A DNA stretch of 55,232 bases from a virus: positions 1 to 55,232 of the IMG/VR virus record IMGVR_UViG_3300021963_000158, one strand, 5' to 3'. The position numbers and the translations under genes were made by a program. Positions 2,759 to 21,804 of this stretch are shown piece by piece; position 1 is the first letter of the stretch, and the number at the start of each line of letters is the position of its first letter. The notes beneath the pieces were generated by a model, which saw nothing but the letters and a program-made list of their open reading frames with translations, was not told the origin of the DNA and made no database searches.

Positions 2759-3760
2759 TTACTTAATCTGTGTCCAAACACGTTCACGTATCTGCTTTGT
2801 CAAACTGTCTGGCAATGCCACATAGTCTAAGTCTGCGGCATCTTTCTTGCCATTCTTGAATGCCCAGTCAAAGAACTTTAACACTTCATCATTAGTGGCT
2901 TTGTTCTTGGACTCTTTGTACATGATAATAAAACTTGCTGAACTTACTGGCCAAGCATTAGGATTCTTTTGATCCACAATACTCAATCCCATACCAGGAA
3001 CACTAAACCAATCAGCACCATCTGCGGCGGCAGCAAATGTTAAGTCATCCGGACTAACATACCGGCCTGACTTGTTCTGTAACTGTAGGAATATCATATT
3101 GTTTTTCTTAACATAAGCATACTCTACATAACCAATTGAACCTTTGATTCTGTTAACGTTGGCTGCAACACCTTCATTGCCTTTGCCACCTACACTATTT
3201 GGTGAAGGCCATTTAACTGCGGCACCACGACCTACTTTAGCTAGCCAATCTGGACTCACTGTGGCAAGATAGTCTGTCCAGTTGAATGTTGTGCCCGAAC
3301 CATCAGCACGATGCACAACGGTAATTGCTTCATTAGGTAGATTCTTACCTGGATTCAATGCCACTAACTTAGGATCATTCCATTTAGCAATAGTACCCAT
3401 GAATACTTCGGCCATCACAGGTCCTGTAATCTTTAGTTCTCCTGGCTTGATACCGTCTAAGTTAACCACAGGGACAGTTCCGCCTATGATAGCAGGGAAC
3501 TGCACTTGTCCCATCTTGTCTAAGTTCTCTCCGCTTACTGGAGCATCAGTTGCACCAAAGTCAACTGTCTTTGCGTTGATTTGTCTAATACCACCCGAAC
3601 TACCAATGCTTTGATAGTTTAAACTAGTGCCGGTTGCTTTCTTGTATCCTTCAGCCCATTTAGAATAGATAGGCATTGGAAAAGTTGCGCCGGCACCTGT
3701 AATGTCTGCGTTTGCTGATACGGTTACTGCGGCTAATAAAATTGCTAATAGTTTTTTCAT
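2759..3760 (-). CDS. pstS: Phosphate ABC transporter substrate-binding protein PstS
   Basis: 333 residues, the usual length for PstS. A signal peptide (MKKLLAILLAAVTVSANA, cleavage near residue 18) targets it to the periplasm. The mature start DITGAGATFPMPIYSKWAEG is the family signature, and the phosphate-binding segments SIGSSGGIRQI and HRADGSGTTFNWTDYL are intact. It binds inorganic phosphate for the host PstCAB transporter, so the phage would raise phosphate uptake during infection. No pstCAB genes are nearby, as is usual for phage-borne pstS. A Pho box lies upstream, so host PhoB probably controls it. Sequence and context agree well. Confidence 0.95.
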   Translation of the reverse strand: MKKLLAILLAAVTVSANADITGAGATFPMPIYSKWAEGYKKATGTSLNYQSIGSSGGIRQINAKTVDFGATDAPVSGENLDKMGQVQFPAIIGGTVPVVNLDGIKPGELKITGPVMAEVFMGTIAKWNDPKLVALNPGKNLPNEAITVVHRADGSGTTFNWTDYLATVSPDWLAKVGRGAAVKWPSPNSVGGKGNEGVAANVNRIKGSIGYVEYAYVKKNNMIFLQLQNKSGRYVSPDDLTFAAAADGADWFSVPGMGLSIVDQKNPNAWPVSSASFIIMYKESKNKATNDEVLKFFDWAFKNGKKDAADLDYVALPDSLTKQIRERVWTQIK

Positions 3761-3890: not shown

Positions 3891-5809
<1,919 letters not shown>

Positions 5810-11477: not shown

Positions 11478-11554
11478 TGGTCGGAGTACAAGGATTCGAA
11501 CCTTGGACCCCCTGGTCCCAAACCAGGTGCGCTACCAGACTGCGCTACACTCCG
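11478..11554 (-). tRNA. tRNA-Pro (UGG)
   Basis: Cloverleaf with 5' end at 11554; acceptor CGGAGTG/TACTCCG, anticodon loop TTTGGGA, A73 and CCA encoded. Decodes all Pro codons if U34 is modified. Confidence 0.95.
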
Positions 11555-11556
11555 AA

Positions 11557-11706
11557 TTAACTTGGTATCATATGCGGTATGTATGGAACATTCCTGGGAC
11601 CGTGTCGCTGTTCAAGTAACCGTTTAGCTTCTTGAGCATTGGGTGCGTATACGCGATCTTTTTGTTCACCTTGCGGTGTTCTTACGGTTGTTTCATACAT
11701 TGGCAT
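11557..11706 (-). CDS. Hypothetical protein, 49 residues
   Basis: A small ORF (MPMYETTVRTPQGEQKDRVY, then APNAQEAKRLLEQRHG) exactly fills the gap between tRNA-Pro and tRNA-fMet, with AAGGAC before the ATG. The APNAQEAKRLLEQRHG segment looks like a short amphipathic helix of the kind seen in small phage proteins that act on nucleotide- or RNA-related partners. No family recognised. The tight packing between tRNAs argues it is real. Confidence 0.6.
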   Translation of the reverse strand: MPMYETTVRTPQGEQKDRVYAPNAQEAKRLLEQRHGPRNVPYIPHMIPS

Positions 11707-11716
11707 ATAATGTCCT

Positions 11717-11791
11717 TGGTTGCGGGGGACGGATTCGCACCGCCGATCTTCAGGTTATGAGCCTGACGAGTTACTTCTTCTCCACCCCGCG
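11717..11791 (-). tRNA. Initiator-like tRNA-Met (CAU)
   Basis: Acceptor CGCGGGG/CCCCGCA has the C1-A72 mismatch that marks initiator tRNAs; anticodon loop CTCATAA; CCA encoded. The anticodon stem ends AGG/CCT rather than the full GGG/CCC. Confidence 0.85.
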
Positions 11792-11798
11792 ATAAAAT

Positions 11799-11884
11799 TG
11801 GTGCGAGTACCCGGGGTCGAACCGGGATGCCATTACAGCGAGAGATTTTAAGTCTCTTGAGTCTACCAATTTCTCCATACTCGC
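11799..11884 (-). tRNA. tRNA-Leu (UAA)
   Basis: Class II cloverleaf, 5' end at 11884; anticodon loop CTTAAAA, long variable arm, A73, CCA encoded. Confidence 0.93.
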
Positions 11885-11894
11885 AATGTTCTAT

Positions 11895-12086
11895 TTAAGC
11901 CGCTTTGGCTTCTTTACGTGAGTTCTTGGTTTCTGTGATCTCGTTACGACGAGCTTTAACTGCTTTACCAAGTTCTGCTAGTGCTTTGCGGGCACGAGTA
12001 CCAGCGGCGCTGTTACCTGCTTCAAATTTAGTGTGCTCTGCCGTGTAGGCTTCAATTGCTGTTTCGATATCTGTATGTGCTGACAT
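11895..12086 (-). CDS. Histone H1-like (Hc1-type) DNA-binding protein
   Basis: 63 residues. The segment FEAGNSAAGTRARKALAELG and the following KAVKARRNEITETKNSRKEA match the bacterial histone H1-like (Hc1) pattern, known from Chlamydia, Bacteroidetes and others. Such proteins coat or compact DNA. In a phage it could help condense host or phage DNA or be packaged; the sequence does not say which. It lies between two tRNA genes, with a good ribosome site (AAGGAAACA) before the ATG. Confidence 0.7.
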   Translation of the reverse strand: MSAHTDIETAIEAYTAEHTKFEAGNSAAGTRARKALAELGKAVKARRNEITETKNSRKEAKAA

Positions 12087-12107
12087 GTTGTTTCCTTTGT
12101 TGAAATT

Positions 12108-12197
12108 TGGCGGAACGACTGAGACTCGAACTCAGAAAGCGGCTTTCACCACTCGACGGATTAGCAATCCGCTCCAATACCATTATGGGACCGTTCC
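12108..12197 (-). tRNA. tRNA-Ser (GCU)
   Basis: Class II cloverleaf, 5' end at 12197; anticodon loop TTGCTAA, G73, CCA encoded. A consensus promoter lies 14 nt upstream. Confidence 0.95.
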
Positions 12198-12206
12198 TTG
12201 CTTAGC

Positions 12207-12848
12207 CTATATTATAACTAACTTCTTTATTCTTGTCAAGTCTAAAGGTGGGTTACATACAGGAATTTTTTGATATTTGTTATAATAGTTACATAGCAAT
12301 TCTAGTTCGGTACTTTTACACAAACTTGGGTGCATGGGCAAGTATGCTTGATAACACTGATCTATTAGGTCTTTACCAAACGCTTCTTTGAATGCTGTTC
12401 CGCATCCATATGGACTTAGCCTATTATTCTTAACTGTGCCTTTGAAGTCTGTTCTACGTCCAAGCATACAATGTCTTGTGACTGCACGACTTTCTCCAAT
12501 GTAAAATACTTCCGGTGCTAGGAAGTCTGCGGGACCTGTGGGCGGAGTATGAAATAAACCATACACATAGCATCCAGGATGCTTTTTGTCAAACCCCCAG
12601 GATGCATTCCATGGTTCATCAATTTGATGCCAGGTAGTAAACTCAGTAAGCTCAGGTTTAACTTGTACTGTGTCTTGCGTTATAAAAAAGTCCGGGCCAC
12701 TTAATTCTGCACACTTCTTCAAACTGTAGGCAAATTGGTCAACATCTTTACAATGCTGAATAATTTCGTACAACTGCTGTTCAGTAAGTCCATGGTTACC
12801 CGAACCCACTCTAATATTACGTGCTAGTATCGCCGCTTTATCAGTCAT
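12207..12848 (-). CDS. GIY-YIG nuclease-like protein
   Basis: 213 residues. GCYVYGL (92-98) and FYIGES (115-120) are the two strands of the GIY-YIG nuclease fold, followed by a conserved-type Arg (in GRRTDF, 130-135). A 15-residue insertion sits between the strands. The N-terminal 75 residues are helical and unassigned. Free-standing GIY-YIG proteins in T4-like phages are often mobile (homing) endonucleases, and this one ends 10 bp from a tRNA, a usual insertion site. The last bases overlap the -35/-10 region of the tRNA-Ser promoter. Confidence 0.7.
   Translation of the reverse strand: MTDKAAILARNIRVGSGNHGLTEQQLYEIIQHCKDVDQFAYSLKKCAELSGPDFFITQDTVQVKPELTEFTTWHQIDEPWNASWGFDKKHPGCYVYGLFHTPPTGPADFLAPEVFYIGESRAVTRHCMLGRRTDFKGTVKNNRLSPYGCGTAFKEAFGKDLIDQCYQAYLPMHPSLCKSTELELLCNYYNKYQKIPVCNPPLDLTRIKKLVII
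12211..12239 (-). promoter_or_regulatory. Promoter of the tRNA-Ser/Leu/fMet/Pro group
   Basis: TTGACA (12234-12239), exact 17-bp spacer, TATAAT (12211-12216). It lies inside the 3' end of the GIY-YIG gene and can drive tRNA-Ser, the H1-like gene, tRNA-Leu, tRNA-fMet, the 49-residue gene, tRNA-Pro and the omega gene. Confidence 0.8.
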
Positions 12849-13731
12849 ATAACTTTTTAATAGTCTGCTCGTAACCGTTAGGAATAAGCATATCCCTGGG
12901 CAAATTAATCTGATGATTTAAACTTGCTATGGCCAAACGTTGTGCTCGAGGTCTATGTTTAGGCACTACATTACCTAACAACACATCAACGCAGAAGTCA
13001 TGATGTATAACTGCATCCGGATGTGGATCATCGTGTACGTAATCCATATATTCTACTGTTGTTTGTTTCTTAACCTTGTATTCCCACATCCCCGAATAGG
13101 TAACAGGGTCTAGCGCATTGGTAGGTCTAAGATAAAACTTATCCCAATCAATTGCTGTCAGCAAATTTTGCATGGGTTTTAAACGCATTATGGCAGCGGC
13201 TGTAACTATATCATTTTTGTTTAATTTGGTTTTATCTGCCCAAATGCTTTTCCAACTTGGCTCAAACTGTGGACGTACATCGTACCAAGGATTTTGCCAA
13301 AACATCATATGATATTTACATCCAATTGTATCGAGCAATAGTTGCATTTGATAGATGATGTTGAAGTTATCAACAATCATATGCGTTAGGCTAACATCAT
13401 GCTCTGGATGCAGTCTATAAAGACCGCGCCATGGATCAGACCCATGTTCGAGGTGTTCGTTGTTGTTAGGGAAAAATCCACGACAATTGTTCTTTTCGAT
13501 CCAGTCATTGTCGTACCACGCACATACACGATTGTTGCCAGTGAGCATAATATACACAGTATCGTCTTTGGTGATACTGTTACGCCGACTCAATAATTCC
13601 CAATAGATAGTTTCATTGGCAATACCCGGCCAACCTAGATTAACAACAGGCTCTGCAGAATATTCTGCAAGCCAATCGCTCCATGTGTGCCAGAACCATT
13701 TAGTAAAACTACAACCGAGAGTGTATGTCAT
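12841..13731 (-). CDS. SGNH/GDSL-type hydrolase-like protein
   Basis: 296 residues. The first strand reads TLGCSFT (residues 4-10; GxS nucleophile block I), LGWPGIANET (32-41) gives the Gly of block II, MLTGNNRV (62-69) the Asn of block III, and DDPHPDAVIHHDF (near 242-254) supplies the Asp/His pair of block V. These are the four catalytic positions of SGNH esterases. The likely reaction is removal or transfer of an acyl (often O-acetyl) group on a glycan. It overlaps the GIY-YIG frame by 8 bp. A distant relative lies at 15934 on the other strand. Confidence 0.65.
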   Translation of the reverse strand: MTYTLGCSFTKWFWHTWSDWLAEYSAEPVVNLGWPGIANETIYWELLSRRNSITKDDTVYIMLTGNNRVCAWYDNDWIEKNNCRGFFPNNNEHLEHGSDPWRGLYRLHPEHDVSLTHMIVDNFNIIYQMQLLLDTIGCKYHMMFWQNPWYDVRPQFEPSWKSIWADKTKLNKNDIVTAAAIMRLKPMQNLLTAIDWDKFYLRPTNALDPVTYSGMWEYKVKKQTTVEYMDYVHDDPHPDAVIHHDFCVDVLLGNVVPKHRPRAQRLAIASLNHQINLPRDMLIPNGYEQTIKKLYD

Positions 13732-13737
13732 TGAATT

Positions 13738-13822
13738 TGGTGCGGATGGTGAGACTCGAACTCACACACCTTTCGGCGACGGCTTCTAAGACCGTTGCGG
13801 CTACCAATTACGCCACATCCGC
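13738..13822 (-). tRNA. tRNA-Leu (UAG)
   Basis: Class II cloverleaf, 5' end at 13822; anticodon loop CTTAGAA, A73, CCA encoded. Its 5' end is 10 nt after the large structured RNA element. Confidence 0.95.
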
Positions 13823-13832
13823 ATGTACTTAC

Positions 13833-14128
13833 TTATAATATAAAAAGTTAGGCACTTAAAATCTGCTTTCCAACCGCGGACCAATATGCCCCCAAGTACG
13901 TCTCTCAGGAATGCCAACTATTCAAGTACTAACTGCCTGTAAGATGGCCTAAATGAATAGCTTGTTATCGGAATCTCAGGAGTTCATTGACTTTCAAAAT
14001 AACGGTGTCGCTTCGGGAATACCCGATATTCACAGAATTCTAGAGCGGCTTCTTACAAATGTCATTTACTATCCCTACCACTAGTATCAGATGGTTGTCG
14101 AACCAGTGCCTAACTTTTTATATTATAA
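13833..14128 (-). ncRNA. Putative structured RNA closed by a perfect 24-bp stem (element 1)
   Basis: A perfect 24-bp inverted repeat (13833-13856 with 14105-14128) encloses 248 bp without a plausible gene. A TTGACA-17-TATACT promoter lies just upstream, so the transcript would start a few bases before the stem. Internal hairpins are visible, for example GGTT-CGAC-AACC and CGGG-TATT-CCCG, and CTATTC/GAATAG can pair over a distance. The element ends 10 nt before tRNA-Leu(UAG). A transposon-like (MITE) origin is an alternative, but I see no target-site duplication. Class unknown. Confidence 0.55.
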
Positions 14129-14136
14129 CAGTACGT

Positions 14137-14165
14137 AGTATATGTGAAATACCACGTACTGTCAA
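14137..14165 (-). promoter_or_regulatory. Promoter of structured RNA 1 and tRNA-Leu
   Basis: TTGACA (14160-14165), 17-bp spacer, TATACT (14137-14142). The spacer and flanks form a hairpin (ACAGTACGT/ACGTACTGT), so the promoter DNA is itself palindromic and could bind a regulator or end the upstream transcript. Confidence 0.6.
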
Positions 14166-14168
14166 CCT

Positions 14169-14753
14169 CTACATTGTGGGACCATTGCCGTTTTTAAAAC
14201 CAACACTACCGCCTTCTGATTCGATGCGCTTGATAACGTCTTCAAATAAGATAGGTGCGTAGTCTGTGGTCTCTACACATACACAATGGTATCTAGGATC
14301 AACAACTGGAACACCATACTTACCAACTGGTTGCATCATCACTCGATTAGCATGCAAGTGTCCGTGAATGTTAACCCCAAATCGTCCCAGCGATTCTGTA
14401 TGAATTGGAATATGGCTCAAGATCATTCCGTTCATAACATGGTATGCACGTAATTCACGAAAGTGTTCTCTGTATTCCTCATCACGGAAGATGTCATGGT
14501 TGCCGCGGATCAACACCTTGTCACCGTTTAATCTTGACATGATTTTCAATGCTCGGCGGTTGATCACAACATCTCCCAAGTGGTAAACCTTGTCGTTGGG
14601 CCTAACACGTTCGTTCCAAGCCTTGACCATAAACTCATCCATCTCCTCTGCGTTGTCGAACGGGCGTAACTTGGTTACACCATCATTACGCATAAAATGG
14701 CAAACACCAGCATGTCCAAAATGTGTATCACTAACTAAAAAAACTGCTGGCAT
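14169..14753 (-). CDS. Calcineurin-like metallophosphoesterase
   Basis: 194 residues from the ATG at 14753 (MPAVFLVSDTHFGHAG), supported by AAGGAG; a longer reading overlaps the kinase gene. Metal-site motifs are in order: DTH (9-11), GD (60-61), GNHD (84-87), SHIPIH (113-118) and HGHLH (130-134), all intact. It is of the small phage type that hydrolyses phosphomonoesters, cyclic phosphates or nucleotides. It forms an operon with a P-loop kinase and a tyrosine phosphatase, together suggesting phosphate editing of nucleic acid ends or signalling molecules. Confidence 0.85.
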   Translation of the reverse strand: MPAVFLVSDTHFGHAGVCHFMRNDGVTKLRPFDNAEEMDEFMVKAWNERVRPNDKVYHLGDVVINRRALKIMSRLNGDKVLIRGNHDIFRDEEYREHFRELRAYHVMNGMILSHIPIHTESLGRFGVNIHGHLHANRVMMQPVGKYGVPVVDPRYHCVCVETTDYAPILFEDVIKRIESEGGSVGFKNGNGPTM

Positions 14754-14763
14754 AATATACTCC

Positions 14764-15225
14764 TTATGTGTACCAGACTTCGTCAAACCCTTCTTCTTCG
14801 GTGGGCGTAACATAATCTTCGATCATTTTATCAACCACTGCTTGTGGTATTACTTTATCCATCCTTGAGGATAATCTCATGTTTAGTTCTTCTGCAGCGG
14901 GTGTTGGAAACACTACAGCAATTTTATGGTATCCGGGCAACATTACAAGTTTCTTTTTGCGACTAGCAACTGTGGTACTAGTTTGGTCCCAGATAATATC
15001 TCGGCCTTCATCTCGTGCAGCAATGACTTCTTCGACCATTAACTCAACTGCGGTAGGCATGTAATCATCAAATACTTCGATATACATTTTATCAACAGAT
15101 GCCGCATAAGCTTCAACTATTTGGTCTGTGCTAATGTATGCACACTCAGCGGCCCATTCTTGGTCGGCTACCCATGTGCTTTTTCCTGCGGCAGGAACTC
15201 CAACTAATACATATACTTTTGGCAT
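14764..15225 (-). CDS. P-loop kinase (polynucleotide/nucleoside kinase-like)
   Basis: 153 residues. Walker A GVPAAGKS (9-16) at the N-terminus, then STDQIVEAYA (32-41), the DIIWDQTSTTVASRKKKL segment (75-92) and the typical lid-like Arg helix. This layout fits the T4 Pnk-type 5'-kinase domain and related small AAA_33 kinases, which phosphorylate RNA/DNA ends or small molecules. Stop and start overlap by one base with the phosphatase upstream. The exact substrate is not visible. Confidence 0.75.
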   Translation of the reverse strand: MPKVYVLVGVPAAGKSTWVADQEWAAECAYISTDQIVEAYAASVDKMYIEVFDDYMPTAVELMVEEVIAARDEGRDIIWDQTSTTVASRKKKLVMLPGYHKIAVVFPTPAAEELNMRLSSRMDKVIPQAVVDKMIEDYVTPTEEEGFDEVWYT

Positions 15226-15692
15226 TATTCTACACTCCTAAATGTGCGCCAATCATCAATGTTTGGCTTTTCGTTTTCATCATAGGTCCAATCCAAGACT
15301 CGCATCATGAGATGCTTGACCAGCAGATTGGGACTACGCCATCTTCCTACATCATCGAAGCCCATCATTACACCAACTTCGCAAACTGCACCACTACGAC
15401 AAATACCTGCAAAGCAATGAACAACAACATTCATTTGATTGTCCTTTGCATGCTGTAGCAAACGCACAAGCTCTACAGCTTGCTCGTAACTACATTTCAT
15501 TTCTTCTTCAAGTACTTCGTCGTGTTCTTCTACATCAAGGAATTCAAAGTTGTGAATTTCTTTAAATGTATGTGCGGGTGTTGGACGCCAACTTGCGGGA
15601 TCAACAATGCTGATCAGCATACTGTTGGGGCCGGCGTCATGATGAAATCTTTTCGGGATATCATCAGCGGCTACGTTTTCAATCCATGGCAT
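15225..15692 (-). CDS. Protein tyrosine / dual-specificity phosphatase-like protein
   Basis: 155 residues. The catalytic loop HCFAGICRSG (92-101) is a perfect HCx5RS active site, and the upstream Asp/Glu-rich region (53-65) could hold the general acid. It would remove phosphate from tyrosine residues or from RNA/phospholipid substrates. First gene of the phosphatase-kinase-phosphoesterase operon, just downstream of tRNA-Gly. Confidence 0.8.
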   Translation of the reverse strand: MPWIENVAADDIPKRFHHDAGPNSMLISIVDPASWRPTPAHTFKEIHNFEFLDVEEHDEVLEEEMKCSYEQAVELVRLLQHAKDNQMNVVVHCFAGICRSGAVCEVGVMMGFDDVGRWRSPNLLVKHLMMRVLDWTYDENEKPNIDDWRTFRSVE

Positions 15693-15712
15693 AATGATAC
15701 CTTTAAGTTAAA

Positions 15713-15788
15713 TGGAGCGGGAGGCGAGAGTCGAACTCGTCTATTTCTGCTTGGAAGGCAGACGTGTAACCAAAAACACTTCACCCGC
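15713..15788 (-). tRNA. tRNA-Gly (UCC)
   Basis: Cloverleaf, 5' end at 15788; anticodon loop CTTCCAA, U73 as usual for Gly, CCA encoded. Confidence 0.93.
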
Positions 15789-15835
15789 AATATTGCTATT
15801 GTAACACTTATTTAATTAAATGTCAATGATTATTT

Positions 15836-15909
15836 TGGCGACCCCCCGGGGACTCGAACCCCGACTAACGGTTTTGGAGACCGCAGTACTGCCATTATAC
15901 TAGAGAGCC
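15836..15909 (-). tRNA. tRNA-Trp (CCA)
   Basis: 5' end at 15909; anticodon loop CTCCAAA, G73, CCA encoded. The acceptor stem GGCTCTC/GGGGGTC pairs through several G-U wobbles, an unusually weak stem. Confidence 0.88.
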
Positions 15910-15920
15910 TAGAGCCTATA

Positions 15921-15928
15921 TATAAATA
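15921..15928 (+). promoter_or_regulatory. T4-type late promoter TATAAATA
   Basis: TATAAATA lies 5 nt before the ATG at 15934, so the transcript should begin at or next to the start codon. No ribosome site is present. Confidence 0.7.
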
Positions 15929-15933
15929 TAGTT

Positions 15934-16647
15934 ATGAAAAATTTCCATCGCTTCCAAGAATTTGCCAATCAAGAACTATTATGGAGTCCGGGTGATTCCG
16001 AAGAACTGTATTTAAATAATCTAAAAACTAATTACGATAAATTAAAAGATAATGGATGGATTAATCATTCGTTTACTTACAAATATAACAGTCACGGGTT
16101 TCGTTGCAACGAGTTTGATGCGTCACCCTCAATTGTTGCACTCGGATGCAGTAATACCATGGGTACCGGATTACCAATAGAACATACTTGGTCATACATT
16201 TTAGCAGAAAATTTAAATTTAACTTGTTTTAATCTAGGTGTCGGCGGTGGAGCAAATGATACTTCGTTTAGACTTGCATATATTTGGTTAGAACTAATTA
16301 AACCTAAAATTGTTGTATTATGGAATCCACACCCTGACCGAATTGAACTGTTAGATGAAACAAAAAATTATACATATCAACCGATCAACCCTGATATTAG
16401 GATGCCAGGTAGTGATTGGTATAAACACTGGGTTAGTACTAGTGATAATGGGGAATTAAACAAAATAAAAAATAGTTATGCTATTGCCCAATTATGCAAA
16501 AGACTTGGTATTAAATTTTTTTCTAAGGAACAAATCTTAACTGAAGATTTCCCTTATGTCCTCGGGAATGATCGTGCCCGTGATTTACTGCATTCCGGTA
16601 GTCAATCTAATCTAAATATAGCAAATTGTATTTTAGACTATTTGTAA
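15934..16647 (+). CDS. SGNH/GDSL hydrolase-like protein, plus strand
   Basis: 237 residues. IVALGCSNTMGTGLP (residues 69-83) carries the GCS nucleophile, FNLGVGGGANDTS (104-116) the Gly/Asn block, VVLWNPHPDRIEL the block III-like Asn, and DLLHSGSQSN (near 218-227) the DxxH pair. It resembles a common phage protein of this fold and shares the same general plan as the 12841 protein. It is one of few plus-strand genes, with its own late promoter and no ribosome site. A role in editing surface acylation is an inference. Confidence 0.65.
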   Translation: MKNFHRFQEFANQELLWSPGDSEELYLNNLKTNYDKLKDNGWINHSFTYKYNSHGFRCNEFDASPSIVALGCSNTMGTGLPIEHTWSYILAENLNLTCFNLGVGGGANDTSFRLAYIWLELIKPKIVVLWNPHPDRIELLDETKNYTYQPINPDIRMPGSDWYKHWVSTSDNGELNKIKNSYAIAQLCKRLGIKFFSKEQILTEDFPYVLGNDRARDLLHSGSQSNLNIANCILDYL

Positions 16648-16648
16648 A

Positions 16649-16724
16649 TGGTAGGACCTGCCAGGTTCGAACTGACGACATTCTGCGTGTAAGGCAGACG
16701 CTCTACCAACTGAGCTAAGGTCCT
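16649..16724 (-). tRNA. tRNA-Val (UAC)
   Basis: 5' end at 16724; acceptor AGGACCT/AGGTCCT, anticodon loop CTTACAC, A73, CCA encoded. It lies convergent to, and almost touching, the stop of the plus-strand gene. Confidence 0.95.
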
Positions 16725-16729
16725 AAATT

Positions 16730-16805
16730 TGGAGCGGCTAACCGGGTTCGAACCGGTGACGTCTTGCTTGGCAAGCAAGTACTCTACCAACTGAGCTACA
16801 GCCGC
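16730..16805 (-). tRNA. tRNA-Gly (GCC)
   Basis: 5' end at 16805; anticodon loop TTGCCAA, U73, CCA encoded. Confidence 0.95.
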
Positions 16806-16810
16806 ATGTT

Positions 16811-18247
16811 TTATTTAACACAGAGGAATGTAACAAATCCCCGATCTGAGTTAATTATATCTGAAGTTGCAAATCCTGTCAACCTCAATTGTTTCAAATA
16901 CCATTCAACGGATACACTATGCATAACGCCTACCAGTTTTTGTTCTTTTTCTTTGATGTACTCTTCAGATAATCCCTGTTGTCGTTTAAAATCATAGTAG
17001 AGATTTTTAACTATGTTGGACTGTGTGGTTTTGTCTGACAGTATTAAATATCCACTGGGTGTTAAACTGCGGTATATATCCTGTAGGTACTGTGCCTTGT
17101 CTTTTACAAAATGTAATGTCCAATTGGCCAATACTAATTTGTATTTGTCTGCAGGAAAGGTATCGCTGTTAATAACACAGTTTGAATGTAAACTGTGCGC
17201 TATCATAGCAGAGCTATTATCTACACCAACTACGTCAGTGTATCCTGCATTGATAAATTTATCTATAGTAAATCCTAGCGCACTCCCAACATCAATGACT
17301 CGATCAGTTTTGTTGATATTCTCATTGGCAAAATCCAAACACCAATCTATAACATGATTGTATGATGGTATGTTTGCAACTGCTTCTTCTTGAAACCGTA
17401 CAGCCACAGTATCATCAAATACCCAAGCATTTTCTTGTTTAATAACTTGTACATTATCAACAACTGTTTGATGTAATGTAGTTAATGTTGTGGTTGTACG
17501 TTGATACCTTGCCATATAACGCAATGACGATGTTCTACCATTTTCGTACAAAGTATCTTTGGTGTTATAGGCATCATGTACACCTGTTATTAACTCAGGT
17601 AATAACAAAGGCTCTGTTCTTTGAAAAGAACAAGTTCCCATTATTAAATCTAATGCTGGTGTAGAAATCCTTGCCCTAACACCGTAATACGATTCTTCAA
17701 ATTTATTATCAGTGCCGGGATTGTTCATATACCCACGGCGGTCAATTAATATCTCACCAAAGTTATCATTGTAACTAAATGTTGGCCAGTTTAAATTGTC
17801 AAACACCACTGCTTCTTTGGTCACTAGATTGATTTTTTTAATAATAGATATAATATCAAGAAAGCAATAAATGACCCCGGATGCAACAACATAATCGTAC
17901 GTTTTGCCAACGGCAATTGCATTGTCTAAAAATTCTTCTATGTCTTGTTGTACAATTTTAAATTGATGTTGCACCCAATATCTAGACAATATACTGTTAC
18001 TATGTTCAACATAATAGTCTTGAATTTCAACTCCGGTATACTCCCTGGCACCATGTGTTAACGCATAATGCCCTGCGGCACCCAGGCAACTTCCTAGATC
18101 TAACACAGATCGGCCTGCAATCAATTCTGCAGGCAACTGTACTTGCAGTCTCTTGTACAAAGATTCTGCTGTTACTATGGCAAATGTTGGGCGAAGCCTA
18201 CGTGGATCCATACTAATAAACTCAGTATGCTCGTTGAAAATGTTCAT
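16811..18247 (-). CDS. Double methyltransferase-domain protein
   Basis: 478 residues from the ATG at 18247 (MNIFNEHTEF). Two class I SAM domains lie in one chain: VLDLGSCLGAAGHYALTHGA (near 50-69) followed by YTGVEI, and RVIDVGSALGFTIDKFINAG (near 325-344) followed by VVGVDNSS and ANWTLHFV (near 398). A late promoter TATAAATA lies only 4 nt before this ATG, which decides the start; a longer reading frame would run into tRNA-Ser. Two methylations of one substrate, or one active and one substrate-binding domain, are possible. Target unknown. Confidence 0.75.
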   Translation of the reverse strand: MNIFNEHTEFISMDPRRLRPTFAIVTAESLYKRLQVQLPAELIAGRSVLDLGSCLGAAGHYALTHGAREYTGVEIQDYYVEHSNSILSRYWVQHQFKIVQQDIEEFLDNAIAVGKTYDYVVASGVIYCFLDIISIIKKINLVTKEAVVFDNLNWPTFSYNDNFGEILIDRRGYMNNPGTDNKFEESYYGVRARISTPALDLIMGTCSFQRTEPLLLPELITGVHDAYNTKDTLYENGRTSSLRYMARYQRTTTTLTTLHQTVVDNVQVIKQENAWVFDDTVAVRFQEEAVANIPSYNHVIDWCLDFANENINKTDRVIDVGSALGFTIDKFINAGYTDVVGVDNSSAMIAHSLHSNCVINSDTFPADKYKLVLANWTLHFVKDKAQYLQDIYRSLTPSGYLILSDKTTQSNIVKNLYYDFKRQQGLSEEYIKEKEQKLVGVMHSVSVEWYLKQLRLTGFATSDIINSDRGFVTFLCVK

Positions 18248-18251
18248 ACGG

Positions 18252-18259
18252 TATTTATA
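18252..18259 (-). promoter_or_regulatory. Late promoter TATAAATA of the double methyltransferase
   Basis: TATAAATA, then CCGT, then ATG: the start site would coincide with the start codon. It is wedged between the gene and the CCA end of tRNA-Ser. Confidence 0.7.
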
Positions 18260-18260
18260 G

Positions 18261-18352
18261 TGGCGGAAGGCAGAAGAGTCGAACTCCATCCCATTTCTGA
18301 GAACCTGGTTTTCAAGGCCAGTCGCAGGACCATCCCCGCTGCATTACCTTCC
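18261..18352 (-). tRNA. tRNA-Ser (UGA)
   Basis: Class II, 5' end at 18352; anticodon loop CTTGAAA with a C-A mismatch closing the loop, G73, CCA encoded. Confidence 0.9.
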
Positions 18353-18357
18353 TTATT

Positions 18358-18421
18358 TGGTGCAACCCCCAGGGATCGAACCTGGTTCAATGGCTCTTCA
18401 GACCACATCAGCTAGAGTTGC
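18358..18421 (-). tRNA. tRNA-Phe (GAA) lacking the D-arm
   Basis: 5' end at 18421. Acceptor GCAACTC/GGGTTGC, then TA, only six bases (GCTGAT) in place of the D-arm, anticodon arm GTGGT-CTGAAGA-GCCAT, variable TGAA, T-arm CCAGG-TTCGATC-CCTGG, A73, CCA encoded. Everything but the D-arm is sound. It is the only Phe tRNA in the window. Confidence 0.75.
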
Positions 18422-18423
18422 AT

Positions 18424-18499
18424 TGGTCCGGCCTACAGGAATCGAACCCATATTCACGGTGTAGAAGACCGCTGTATTATCCATTATACTAAGGCCGGC
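18424..18499 (-). tRNA. tRNA-Arg (UCU)
   Basis: 5' end at 18499; acceptor GCCGGCC/GGCCGGA region, anticodon loop CTTCTAC, CCA encoded. Confidence 0.92.
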
Positions 18500-18504
18500 T
18501 AAAT

Positions 18505-18578
18505 TGGTGCCCCTACACAGAATCGAACTGCAAACTACGGATTACAAAACCGTCGTTATACCATTTAACTATAAGGGC
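18505..18578 (-). tRNA. tRNA-Thr (UGU)
   Basis: 5' end at 18578; anticodon loop TTTGTAA closed by a T-T mismatch, A73, CCA encoded. Confidence 0.9.
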
Positions 18579-18584
18579 AATATC

Positions 18585-18658
18585 TGGCACCCGGAGTAGG
18601 AATCGAACCTACAATAGCAGAGTCAAAGTCTGTTGTGTTACCACTACACTATCCGGGA
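18585..18658 (-). tRNA. tRNA-Gln (UUG)
   Basis: 5' end at 18658; anticodon loop CTTTGAC, G73, CCA encoded. The first pair is U1-U72, in keeping with the weak 1-72 pair that glutaminyl-tRNA synthetase prefers. Confidence 0.92.
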
Positions 18659-18666
18659 TTAAATTT

Positions 18667-18742
18667 TGGTGGTGATAGAGAGATTCGAACTCCCGACAGT
18701 CTCCGTATGAAGGAGGTGTTCTACCAACTGAACTACATCACC
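18667..18742 (-). tRNA. tRNA-Met elongator (CAU), or tRNA-Ile2
   Basis: 5' end at 18742; acceptor GGTGATG/TATCACC, anticodon loop TTCATAC, A73, CCA encoded. Anticodon CAT could be Met or, if lysidine-modified, Ile reading AUA; the sequence alone does not decide. Confidence 0.9.
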
Positions 18743-18744
18743 AG

Positions 18745-18820
18745 TGGGGTAACCAATGGGTAACGATCCCATACTACCAGTTTCACAGACTAGGGTGCAA
18801 ACCTCTACACTATGGTCACC
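18745..18820 (-). tRNA. tRNA-His (GUG)
   Basis: 5' end at 18820; the extra G-1 pairs with C73, the hallmark of His tRNA; anticodon loop CTGTGAA; CCA encoded. The T-loop ATCGTTA is unusual. Its 5' end overlaps the last 16 bases of the QueC-like gene. Confidence 0.88.
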
Positions 18821-19338
18821 ATATCTTTAAATTCTACGCACTTGGGGCACTTCCCGCAGTCAGAGTCTGTTATACACCAACTAACCAACGGCTGGATATT
18901 TTTAGGAATTAAACTCCACTGTTCGGTCTTGGATAGATGATCCAAGGGATGATTGAATGCAACTGCGGGATGCATTGTCGCCCATACTGCCATCATTTCT
19001 TCAATGAAAGGTTTTATATTTCCACTTGGTTCTGCGCTGTTACGTCCACACCAAATTTCTGTAACACTAGAATCTCTGGCCACCCAAAGACTAGCAACAA
19101 ATATAAAATATCTCATCTGATGCACAAACTCACCACCACCGGCAGGTATAGACAAGGTGCTGTACTGTACCTGCTTGTTAAATGCTTGTGCTATTTTTTC
19201 TGCTTTAATGCTGTTAGGCGACAATATTGCGCCAGGATAGACGTGATCAATGTTTAAAAGAATATCTGCGTCTCGAGCAATAGTCAGCATAGCTGTACTT
19301 TCTACGCCGCCGCTGAATAAAATTAAAGCCTTAGACAT
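18805..19338 (-). CDS. QueC-like 7-cyano-7-deazaguanine synthase, short form
   Basis: 177 residues, shorter than the usual 220-230. The PP-loop motif SGGVES is at 9-14, IWCGRNSAEPSG near 94-105 matches the ATP/substrate region, and four cysteines (155, 161, 164, 167; CGKCPKC) form the zinc site. QueC makes preQ0, used for queuosine in tRNA or for deazaguanine DNA modification. No other queuosine or Dpd genes are visible in the window, so the product may be used with host enzymes or elsewhere in the genome. The gene sits in a tRNA cluster and runs into tRNA-His. Confidence 0.7.
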   Translation of the reverse strand: MSKALILFSGGVESTAMLTIARDADILLNIDHVYPGAILSPNSIKAEKIAQAFNKQVQYSTLSIPAGGGEFVHQMRYFIFVASLWVARDSSVTEIWCGRNSAEPSGNIKPFIEEMMAVWATMHPAVAFNHPLDHLSKTEQWSLIPKNIQPLVSWCITDSDCGKCPKCVEFKDMVTIV

Positions 19339-19394
19339 TGTTATTCCTTATTGTACTAAATATTTTTGTGAGAACCTATCAAAATCTTACCCCA

Positions 19395-19532
19395 ATGGGA
19401 CTTAACTTTCAATTAAGTTTAAGCAATGACGGTGTCTGTTGTATCCTAGTATACGACATTTACAACTGCGAAGCAACCATGCGGTACTTTACCAATGTAA
19501 ACAAGGCACTTAGGTTTATTAATAATCTTTGA
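19395..19532 (+). CDS. Possible small plus-strand protein, 45 residues
   Basis: MGLNFQLSLSNDGVCCILVY leads a short strand-rich protein ending in NKALRFINNL. It fits exactly between two minus-strand genes, and ACTAAATAT (a late-type box) lies about 40 nt upstream, but there is no ribosome site. The ending is like small phage proteins, and the frame stays open without reason otherwise. Existence is uncertain. Confidence 0.4.
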   Translation: MGLNFQLSLSNDGVCCILVYDIYNCEATMRYFTNVNKALRFINNL

Positions 19533-19533
19533 A

Positions 19534-19719
19534 TTATGCTCGAACGTCAACAGTTCGAGGTTTGACTGTGGGATCTAATTCGCCCATTTTGTTGTACAAG
19601 TATTGCACAACTTCTATAACTTTCTTTTGCGAAACAGGATCAACTAGAGTTTTGTACTCTATGTTACGGAATTGGTTATAAACCATATCCCAATTGTTTG
19701 CTATGCTTTGTACTATCAT
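19534..19719 (-). CDS. Hypothetical protein, 61 residues
   Basis: Helical first part (MIVQSIANNWDMVYNQFRNI), then KKVIEVVQYLYNKMGELDPT. No family recognised. A late-type box AATAAATA (19724-19731) lies 4 nt before the ATG, so it probably makes a leaderless late mRNA. It is directly downstream of the tRNA-Lys trailer hairpin. Confidence 0.6.
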   Translation of the reverse strand: MIVQSIANNWDMVYNQFRNIEYKTLVDPVSQKKVIEVVQYLYNKMGELDPTVKPRTVDVRA

Positions 19720-19723
19720 ATAG

Positions 19724-19731
19724 TATTTATT
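19724..19731 (-). promoter_or_regulatory. Late-type promoter AATAAATA
   Basis: AATAAATA, then four bases, then the ATG of the 61-residue gene. Confidence 0.55.
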
Positions 19732-19808
19732 TTACCATACAAAAACACACCACTTTCTCTTTATATGCCACGGACGCCACGTGTACGGTGATGTGTTTTT
19801 GTATGGTA
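19732..19808 (-). ncRNA. Hairpin element after tRNA-Lys (element 3)
   Basis: A 16-17-bp inverted repeat (ACCATACAAAAACACA and its complement, about 19732-19749 with 19791-19808) closes a roughly 40-base loop. The 5' arm overlaps the CCA end of tRNA-Lys. It may end or process the tRNA array transcript; a T-run follows within the arm. Confidence 0.45.
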
Positions 19809-19877
19809 GGGGTGCTCGGGAACGATCCGAGTTTTACTGGTTAAAAGCCAGTTACTTCACCTTAAAGTTTCACCCCC
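19804..19877 (-). tRNA. tRNA-Lys (UUU)
   Basis: 5' end at 19877; anticodon loop CTTTTAA, A73, CCA encoded; first pair G1-U72. Confidence 0.92.
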
Positions 19878-19928
19878 GCTATCTTATCACTCTTGTCACT
19901 TGTCATGACAGATCTCCTTTAAAAAATT

Positions 19929-20003
19929 TGGTACCCGGAGCAAGATTTGAACTTGCGGCCAACGCCTTATCAAGGCGCTGCTCTACCACTGAGCTACCCG
20001 GGT
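19929..20003 (-). tRNA. tRNA-Ile (GAU)
   Basis: 5' end at 20003; anticodon loop TTGATAA, A73, CCA encoded. Confidence 0.94.
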
Positions 20004-20007
20004 GCAT

Positions 20008-20084
20008 TGGTCGGCCCTGAGAGACTCGAACTCCCAACCTCTAGTTTCGAAGACTAGCACTCTAATCCATTGAGTTAAGGACCG
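20008..20084 (-). tRNA. tRNA-Arg (UCG)
   Basis: 5' end at 20084; acceptor CGGTCCT/AGGGCCG, anticodon loop CTTCGAA, A73, CCA encoded. Confidence 0.94.
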
Positions 20085-20149
20085 TAAAATTGTTGCCGGG
20101 TAGGTGCTCCGGCGCCGAATCGTCTTGATATTATCTCACGGCCCTTGTT

Positions 20150-20234
20150 TGGTGGAGATGATAGGGATCGAACCTATCGTGACCGAAGTCGGAGGAGTTA
20201 CAGTCCCCTGCCACACCATTGCGGCGGCATCTCC
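20150..20234 (-). tRNA. tRNA-Tyr (GUA)
   Basis: Class II, 5' end at 20234; acceptor GGAGATG/CATCTCC, anticodon loop CTGTAAC, A73, CCA encoded. Confidence 0.95.
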
Positions 20235-20239
20235 ATGTG

Positions 20240-20315
20240 TGGTACTCGATAGCGGAGTCGAACCGCTCTTGCCTGGATGAAAACCAGATGTCCTAACCGA
20301 TAGACGAATCGAGCA
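20240..20315 (-). tRNA. tRNA-Glu (UUC)
   Basis: 5' end at 20315; anticodon loop TTTTCAT, A73, CCA encoded; first pair G1-U72. Confidence 0.92.
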
Positions 20316-20325
20316 AAATACTTGT

Positions 20326-20397
20326 GGAAGTGACAGGGATCGAACCTGCGACCTACTGGTTGCAAACCAGTCGCTCTCCCAATTGAGCTACACCCCC
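20326..20397 (-). tRNA. tRNA-Ala (UGC), CCA not encoded
   Basis: 5' end at 20397; acceptor GGGGGTG/CACTTCC, anticodon loop TTTGCAA, A73. CAA follows instead of CCA, so CCA must be added by the host enzyme; nearly all other tRNAs here encode CCA. Confidence 0.93.
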
Positions 20398-20403
20398 ATA
20401 AAC

Positions 20404-20479
20404 TGGCTCCCCAACGTGGGCTCGAACCACGGACCAACAGATTAACAGTCTGCTACTCTACCGACTGAGCTATTGGGGA
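20404..20479 (-). tRNA. tRNA-Asn (GUU)
   Basis: 5' end at 20479; acceptor TCCCCAA/TTGGGGA, anticodon loop CTGTTAA, G73, CCA encoded. Confidence 0.95.
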
Positions 20480-20665
20480 ATACACAAAATTGGTTGGCTG
20501 TGCTCTGCACATTTAATCGTTCCTGCTTGACGTTTTGCTTTCGCGTGTCTTGCGTTTTAAACGAACCATAATTAATCGTTGCCTCACCTAAGTGCCCTAG
20601 TTCCTCTAGGGCTTTACCGCTGTTCCTCAGCGGACCTAAATGCTGTTTACTTCAGCAACCGTATT
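20480..20665 (-). other. tRNA spacer with GGA-loop hairpins
   Basis: 186 bp between tRNA-Asp and tRNA-Asn with no clear gene. Two strong hairpins show loop AGGAA: CCGCTG/CAGCGG (20617-20633) and GCCCTAG/CTAGGGC (20594-20612). AACGATTAA occurs twice as a direct repeat. A 18-codon ORF (MVRLKRKTRESKTSSRND) lies between the two repeats, very basic, without a good ribosome site. Confidence 0.5.
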
Positions 20666-20740
20666 TGGCGGTCTGTGGGGGAATCGAACCCCCGTAAGTG
20701 GATAGACAATCCACAGTAATAACCTCTATACGAACAGACC
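20666..20740 (-). tRNA. tRNA-Asp (GUC)
   Basis: 5' end at 20740; acceptor GGTCTGT/ACAGACC, anticodon loop TTGTCTA, G73, CCA encoded. It begins 8-10 nt after structured RNA 2. Confidence 0.94.
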
Positions 20741-21231: not shown

Positions 21232-21309
21232 TGGAAGTGCGGGTCGGATTTGAACCGACGGTTTTGCGGATTTGCAATCCACTGCATTGGGCCACTCTGC
21301 CACCGCACT
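21232..21309 (-). tRNA. tRNA-Cys (GCA)
   Basis: 5' end at 21309; acceptor AGTGCGG/CCGCACT, anticodon loop TTGCAAA, U73 as usual for Cys, CCA encoded. First tRNA after the attenuator-like leader. Confidence 0.93.
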
Positions 21310-21570
21310 ATATTATGGTACTCCTTGGTTCCTAGGTGATGCCCGGCCTGCCGTGGGCGCCTTTCCTTGGCGCTCGGCATGTTCATCCTCGGAGTATTCT
21401 AAAGCATACGTGGTTATATGCTTTAGAATACCCTGTGCTGACACAGGATATGATAGGGTTGATGCCCTACCCAGGAGTCTATTGTTCCACATATGGAACT
21501 CCATGTATCCTGTCCGCCCGTTTAGCTTGTTTAATGTGTTGCCTGGGACCTCGTTTCCCATTCCACATAA
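21310..21570 (-). ncRNA. Hairpin-rich leader between attenuator and tRNA-Cys
   Basis: About 260 bases without a supported gene, folding into a string of hairpins in transcript order: GGGA/TCCC, GTTCCA/TGGAAC, TAGGG/CCCTA, CCTGTG-TCAG-CACAGG, a 14-bp stem TATTCTAAAGCATA with its complement (21395-21430), and GCGCC-AAGGAAA-GGCGC (21357-21373). Open frames crossing it lack ribosome sites and I do not call them. Confidence 0.5.
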
Positions 21571-21603
21571 CAAAAAACCCTAGGGTTTTTAGTCCTAGGG
21601 TCC
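21571..21603 (-). terminator. Intrinsic terminator of a putative attenuator
   Basis: Arm B ACCCTAGG (94-101 of 215xx-216xx) pairs with arm C CCTAGGGT (21577-21584), 9-base loop, followed by TTTTTG. The same arm B can instead pair with CTAGGGTCC (21646-21654) in the upstream ORF, which would block the terminator. Confidence 0.7.
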
Positions 21604-21628
21604 TTGAAGTTTGTTGTGAACTTGTGTG

Positions 21629-21769
21629 TTACACTACCATCTCCTGGACCCTAGATTTTTCTGAACCACGATCATTACTAAACATCGGTGCACAGATCGT
21701 TGACCAATAGGCTAACAAGCCTGTTGTGGGCAACGTATGCTGTGTGGATTGTTTAATAATTTGCGTCAT
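21629..21769 (-). CDS. Putative 46-residue leader peptide containing all 20 amino acids
   Basis: ORF from ATG 21769 to TAA 21629. It starts MTQIIKQSTQHTLPTTGLLA, continues YWSTICAPMFSNDRGSEKSR and ends VQEMVV. Each of the 20 amino acids occurs at least once (single or rare: H11, P14, Y21, W22, C26, F30, N32, D33, E37, V41). The ATG lies 6 nt after a TATAAT box, so the mRNA is probably leaderless. Codons 39-42 include the sequence CTAGGGTCC that can pair with the terminator arm. The peptide itself need have no function; its translation would set the attenuator upstream of the tRNA array. Alternative: an ordinary small early gene. Confidence 0.65.
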   Translation of the reverse strand: MTQIIKQSTQHTLPTTGLLAYWSTICAPMFSNDRGSEKSRVQEMVV

Positions 21770-21775
21770 GTCCGT

Positions 21776-21804
21776 ATTATAACTTCTTTTTTGTTTCTTG
21801 TCAA
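21776..21804 (-). promoter_or_regulatory. Promoter of the leader and tRNA array
   Basis: TTGACA (21799-21804), exact 17-bp spacer, TATAAT (21776-21781): a perfect consensus. The start point predicted 6-7 nt downstream is the A or the base before the ATG of the 46-codon ORF. Confidence 0.8.

Follow-up and report, generated by a model that had tools for sequence, protein, structure and literature searches.

A putative ribosome-mediated attenuator with a leader peptide containing all 20 amino acids upstream of a phage tRNA array

Analysis of a 55,232-nucleotide stretch of viral DNA (IMG/VR record IMGVR_UViG_3300021963_000158, hereafter called the window) indicated that the element preceding its tRNA genes is very probably a ribosome-mediated transcription attenuator of the phage tRNA operon, multivalent in the sense that it would respond to nearly any uncharged or missing tRNA. 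The reading is wholly computational. Since relatives of the element keep both an ORF encoding all the amino acids and the alternative RNA folds, the phage probably turns on its own tRNAs when any charged tRNA runs short and ribosomes stall. All leader elements lie on the minus strand, and the features of the region are as follows.

21776..21804, minus strand: sigma-70-type promoter, TTGACA-17-TATAAT, with 12/12 consensus matches
21629..21769, minus strand: leader ORF MTQIIKQSTQHTLPTTGLLAYWSTICAPMFSNDRGSEKSRVQEMVV, 46 codons, all 20 amino acids, ATG at 21769 and TAA at 21629
21646..21654, minus strand: segment A (CTAGGGTCC), within the 3' portion of the ORF, the antiterminator arm that pairs with segment B in the predicted fold
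21640..21643, minus strand: extension of A, GGAG, pairing with CTTC (21609-21606) in the predicted fold
21594..21609, minus strand: segment B, both the 3' arm of the antiterminator and the 5' arm of the terminator in the predicted folds
21572..21584, minus strand: segment C (CCTAGGGT) with a T-run, forming the 3' arm of an intrinsic terminator whose predicted fold has -17.3 kcal/mol
21312..21559, minus strand: conserved untranslated RNA located between the attenuator and the first tRNA, core GGAAACGAGGTCC..AACGGGCGGA, strongly structured (z = -6.3)
21232..21309, minus strand: tRNA-Cys, the first tRNA of the array
11478..20740, minus strand: remainder of the array, 22 more tRNAs among protein genes

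The consensus promoter and the 46-codon ORF containing each of the 20 amino acids, both described in the original prediction, were found at these positions. The ATG of the ORF is located 6 nt past the -10 box, i.e. on the predicted +1, and the leader mRNA is therefore predicted to be leaderless, with AUG at +1. Another promoter-like site, TTGACA-17-TACAAT, was observed upstream of the first promoter (21898-21870, minus strand); a transcript from this site would carry an in-frame extended ORF of 64 codons.

The stems were predicted with ViennaRNA, and the A:B pairing was located by folding each leader. In the window, the core of B, GGACCCTAG (21603-21595), is the partner of A (21654-21646), and the terminator consists of a 5' arm (21605-21594), a loop (21593-21585), a 3' arm (21584-21573), and a T-run (21577-21572). 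The A:B and B:C pairings are mutually exclusive, B being common to both. The fold of the leader RNA (21769-21570) was better than those of all 200 shuffled sequences (z = -6.1), and folding confirmed the claim that A pairs with B, that B pairs with C to form a terminator with the T-run, and that the two pairings exclude each other.

In the mechanism that we propose, transcription would start at the AUG of the ORF, with a ribosome trailing the RNA polymerase. Smooth reading would bring the ribosome to the stop codon, where it would mask A and let the B:C terminator form, so that transcription would end before the tRNAs. The usual footprint of a ribosome at the window stop codon covers A only partly. 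A stall upstream of A, at a codon whose tRNA is uncharged, cleaved or missing, would leave A free to pair with B; with the terminator blocked, the structured RNA and the tRNA array would be transcribed. The peptide would then act as a code-wide sensor, each amino acid being found at least once upstream of or near A in most members of the family. We infer translation of the ORF, termination at 21572 and the response to tRNA shortage from the sequence.

To find relatives of the leader, we scanned 2.9 million viral contigs (IMG/VR). A search with a neighbouring gene gave one diverged copy (L061), which has a different peptide, again with all 20 amino acids, and in which both stems are altered compatibly. 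The motif of the downstream RNA led to 88 IMG/VR stretches, which together with the window provided 59 distinct leaders, located at the same site, with enough upstream DNA. The leader ORFs of the relatives were chosen by promoter and terminator, and composition was ignored. The leaders were 22 to 59 codons long, mostly 35-59. All 20 amino acids were present in 40/59 leaders, where approximately one was expected, and at least 19 in 52/59. Related leaders are not independent of one another; when they were grouped into clusters at 70% identity, 24 of the 38 clusters still contained all 20 amino acids, the expected number being 0.62 from the window proteome and 1.10 from the pooled composition of the leaders.

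The same completeness was found in 0.6% of real protein windows of 44 residues each, and in 2/59 and 0/59 of the other reading frames of the leader DNA. ORFs chosen by a closely similar rule contained all 20 amino acids in 38/56 cases near the motif and in 0/13 cases elsewhere in the same contigs. Every leader had Trp, as one residue in 53 leaders and as two in six. Residues present in a single copy were substituted half as often as others between related leaders, a comparison with a partial confounder, namely the general tendency of rare residues to be conserved. In 38 of 42 cases in which such a residue had been substituted, the amino acid was present elsewhere in the partner peptide, most clearly with Cys. 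Three leaders (L105, L120, and L135) have little peptide sequence in common with the window but have kept the 20-letter set. These results argue that the amino-acid composition of the leaders is selected.

The stems were conserved as well. When the terminator 3' arm was withheld from folding, B found its partner at the ORF end in 59/59 leaders, and A always fell among the final codons. The longest perfect A/B complement had a mean length of 7.8 bases within the leader's own sequence, 5.5 bases with other loci, and 4.7 bases with shuffled sequences, and across the clusters several pair types were seen at most positions of both stems. Conservation in related phages, which the original prediction had named as a check, was thus borne out both for the ORF with its all-amino-acid content (40/59 complete) and for the two stems, each of which showed compensatory changes. 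The element accordingly has a promoter-driven short ORF, an antiterminator and a terminator predicted to be exclusive (59/59), an ORF end overlapping the antiterminator arm, and, as described below, control codons cognate to the genes controlled, as is the case in attenuators.

The promoter spacer was 17 nt in 57/59 leaders. In approximately half of the 59 leaders, the ORF starts 6-10 nt past the -10 box, making them leaderless or nearly so; in the remaining ones the gap after the -10 box is 22-77 nt, and many have an AAGGA- or AGAGAAAAC-like stretch. The leader family thus appears to comprise two initiation modes. Neither DNA nor peptide similarity revealed members of the all-20 family among annotated phages. 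Six pattern matches in bacteria were rejected as homologues, since all lay within unrelated sequence and their number was about that expected by chance.

We compared the leader peptides with the tRNA sets that they precede. ARAGORN detected 23 tRNAs of 19 isotypes in the window array, including tRNA-Cys, and did not find tRNA-Phe in the window; the earlier description of the array as containing all 20 isotypes did not hold. In the family, the leader lacked the amino acid in 5/677 cases where the corresponding tRNA was present versus 24/343 cases where none was seen (stratified CMH z = 5.4; permutation P = 0.0002), and the incomplete arrays of short contigs should blur such a match, not create it. 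The five cells with a tRNA present and the amino acid absent from the leader, which count against the reading, include those of L103 and L159. The clearest match was displayed by a 357-kb phage (L096) with a leader of only 22 codons, MTKQIFKHMFCIRWYQPGGGIS. Its array is limited to tRNAs for Ile, Trp, Cys, Lys, Gln, Met, Arg, His, and Phe; the leader contains all nine, and neither the leader nor the array has A, D, E, L, N, or V. Where a locus had 18 or more tRNAs, the phage's own set could read slightly fewer of the leader codons than expected (840 versus 876). Codon choice, as if tuned to the host tRNAs, was rejected as evidence, because the signal was too weak and depended on the method.

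Independent support came from leaders of a similar kind in unrelated phages. A match to one terminator led to LR756504, a 636-kb phage with eight leaders, one for each main tRNA or tRNA/aminoacyl-tRNA synthetase cluster and each rich in the codons of that cluster. An LSLCLSLSLSL leader precedes the Leu, Ser, and Cys tRNAs, an IFWHFHF leader the His and Phe tRNAs, and TTIIRNMNNNINRTRTT the Thr, Asn, Arg, Ile, and Met tRNAs together with the ThrRS gene (operon in L178). The lysine operon (L180, 265-1747, minus strand) consists of a KKKK leader, three tRNA-Lys genes, the LysRS gene, and one more tRNA-Lys gene. In seven of the leaders every isotype of the own cluster was present, a match reached by the true assignment alone of 5040. 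The only relatives of LR756504 among the viral contigs were 100% identical contigs, seemingly of the same phage.

Codon-matched leaders were also found in Bacillus phage G (Cys, Asp, Phe, Tyr, Glu, Thr, and Ser), CcrColossus (two clusters), phiCbK, and CcrKarma, and in Brevundimonas phage Gurke the presence of tRNA-Tyr in the cluster is accompanied by an additional Tyr codon in the leader. Weaker cases were Atu_ph07 and the KVP40 group, in which a leader of 37 codons with 18-19 amino acids is conserved across Vibrio phages. The phiCbK, CcrKarma and Gurke leaders were found as homologues, and those of phage G, Atu_ph07, and KVP40, as well as the other LR756504 and CcrColossus leaders, by terminator position. 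For ten operons, none of 200000 random assignments equalled the observed match between leader and cluster; the leader of CcrColossus cluster 1 and one LR756504 leader had been found by ranking on composition (872 nested ORFs tested), and the P values of these two need that correction. Leader 2 of phiCbK, a phage without tRNA-Arg (PMC3556154), is Arg-rich, which counts against codon matching. Phosso gave a weak leader candidate only, and no convincing leader was found in PA5oct, XacN1, T5, GAP32, or BF.

The proposal that stalling at any starved codon would turn on the tRNA genes was supported: the content of the ORF, the compensatory stems, and the codon-matched leaders of other phages speak for it, with Val as a probable exception. 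The only Val codons of the window leader are codons 41, 45, and 46, all of them inside or past segment A, so that a shortage of Val would probably go unsensed by the window copy.

The possibility exists that the leader senses a general slowdown of translation, like an ermC-type or drug-response attenuator, and that its amino-acid content is incidental. Any stall upstream of A would serve such a function, and one codon per amino acid means weak amino-acid-specific sensitivity (PMC1183508). However, full sets of amino acids in 40/59 leaders, with rare residues kept or relocated, are not what incidental content would lead one to expect; neither the other frames nor the control ORFs show such completeness, and arrays with a subset of tRNAs are preceded by leaders with the matching subset. 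An ermC-type leader has no amino-acid specificity, whereas the composition of the present leaders appears selected and matched to the tRNA set, and we consider this explanation improbable. It is even less probable that the product of the ORF is a small protein with a function of its own, made together with the tRNA operon, and that the hairpin serves as an ordinary terminator. In favour of this, related leaders have similar stretches of peptide, YWS and NDR. Against it, the peptides drift apart until they have little in common while the 20-letter set persists (the three leaders mentioned above), the length ranges from 22 to 59 codons, and RNA pairing constrains the ORF end. Moreover, the peptides of codon-matched leaders in other phages are of low complexity, e.g. 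KKKK and LSLSLSL.

It is also conceivable that the switch is run not by the ribosome but by another ligand or a phage antiterminator protein, as in a riboswitch or an N-like system, and the large structured RNA past the attenuator could join in antitermination. We regard this as the least probable explanation of all, because no Rfam riboswitch or T-box matched and because A is always at the 3' end of an ORF whose codons track the tRNA array. The T-box covariance model had no match in the leader region, and the only matches above the Rfam gathering score in the window were tRNAs. A weak match to mir-137 was discarded as a chance hairpin.

Attenuation by the ribosome, the reading preferred here, has known counterparts. 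The trp, his, pheA, and leu attenuators likewise have a short leader ORF with control codons and competing stems that include an intrinsic terminator, the position of the ribosome being decisive. They differ in that they respond to one amino acid through runs of its codons, control biosynthetic genes, and have a four-segment layout, whereas the phage leader covers up to all 20 amino acids, precedes phage tRNA genes, and has two stems and an ORF that is often leaderless. In the multivalent attenuators of ilvGMEDA and thrABC, one leader covers several amino acids matched to the operon products; these are two or three in number, compared with up to 20 in the phage leader, where they are matched to the tRNA array. 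In pheST/pheM-type attenuation of aminoacyl-tRNA synthetase genes, a shortage of charged tRNA raises the expression of genes of the translation apparatus. In LR756504, the operons with LysRS and ThrRS are of a similar type, but the system is phage-borne, joined with tRNA genes, and has either a leader for each cluster or a single one for the complete set. T-box riboswitches also sense uncharged tRNA and choose between terminator and antiterminator; they bind the tRNA directly and have no ORF, while the phage leader has an ORF and no T-box match in Rfam. It would be the first regulator known to us to cover the entire amino-acid alphabet simultaneously. The phage leader is filed here as a variant within ribosome-mediated attenuation. 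The original prediction had suggested that a general sensor of charged tRNA controlling a phage tRNA set would be new, and no earlier report of such a sensor or of attenuators of phage tRNA arrays was found in the open-access literature. Full texts on huge phages (PMC7162821) and phiCbK (PMC3556154) mention neither attenuators nor leader peptides.

The reason for the presence of tRNA genes in phages has been debated for decades. If the present reading is true, the stall-triggered sensor would show the purpose of the tRNA array, i.e. to replace tRNAs that become limiting. The benefit would presumably be the replacement of host tRNAs lost to tRNA-cutting defences of the host or to infection itself. 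Some phage tRNA genes have been tied to the evasion of tRNA-cutting defences (PMC10264068, PMC11555353). Since the synthesis of tRNA is useful only if the tRNA, not the amino acid, is limiting, we favour tRNA loss, caused by such defences or by infection, over amino-acid starvation as the natural signal. According to modelling, few control codons per amino acid result in low sensitivity (PMC1183508), and single codons should therefore answer only to strong depletion, a behaviour that suits an alarm.

On a wider scale, we lean towards the view that leader-peptide attenuators, sensing which tRNAs are lacking, are in wide use for the control of phage tRNA arrays, with one leader per cluster in split arrays and, in full arrays, one whole-alphabet leader as an alarm for the loss of any charged tRNA. 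Replacement tRNAs would be turned on when antiviral nucleases cut the host tRNAs or when these become depleted in the course of infection. A practical rule suggested by this view is that the leader peptide predicts which tRNAs a phage replaces. Isolates open to testing are phiCbK and CcrColossus (on Caulobacter crescentus), phage G, and Atu_ph07.

The structured RNA between the attenuator and the first tRNA (21312-21559, minus strand) is perhaps a cis-acting antitermination element for the long tRNA operon, or else a free non-coding RNA. It had no match in Rfam, and a consensus fold of its core from the sequence alignment gave nothing informative. The core, AGTGY..GGAAACGAGGTCC..GCACT..AAACGGGCGGAC..GGATGA, was seen in the window and at 88 loci (L083-L170). 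Many members of the family have an ORF of approximately 45-60 codons with the pattern LTPEQ..LI..K..RA between the terminator and the structured RNA (L083, L085, L090, L111, L163, and others). Elsewhere in the window, the translated ORFs at 3891-5507 and 2759-3760 (both minus strand), as judged by eye, resemble a chaperonin of the GroEL type and a phosphate-binding protein of the PstS type, respectively.
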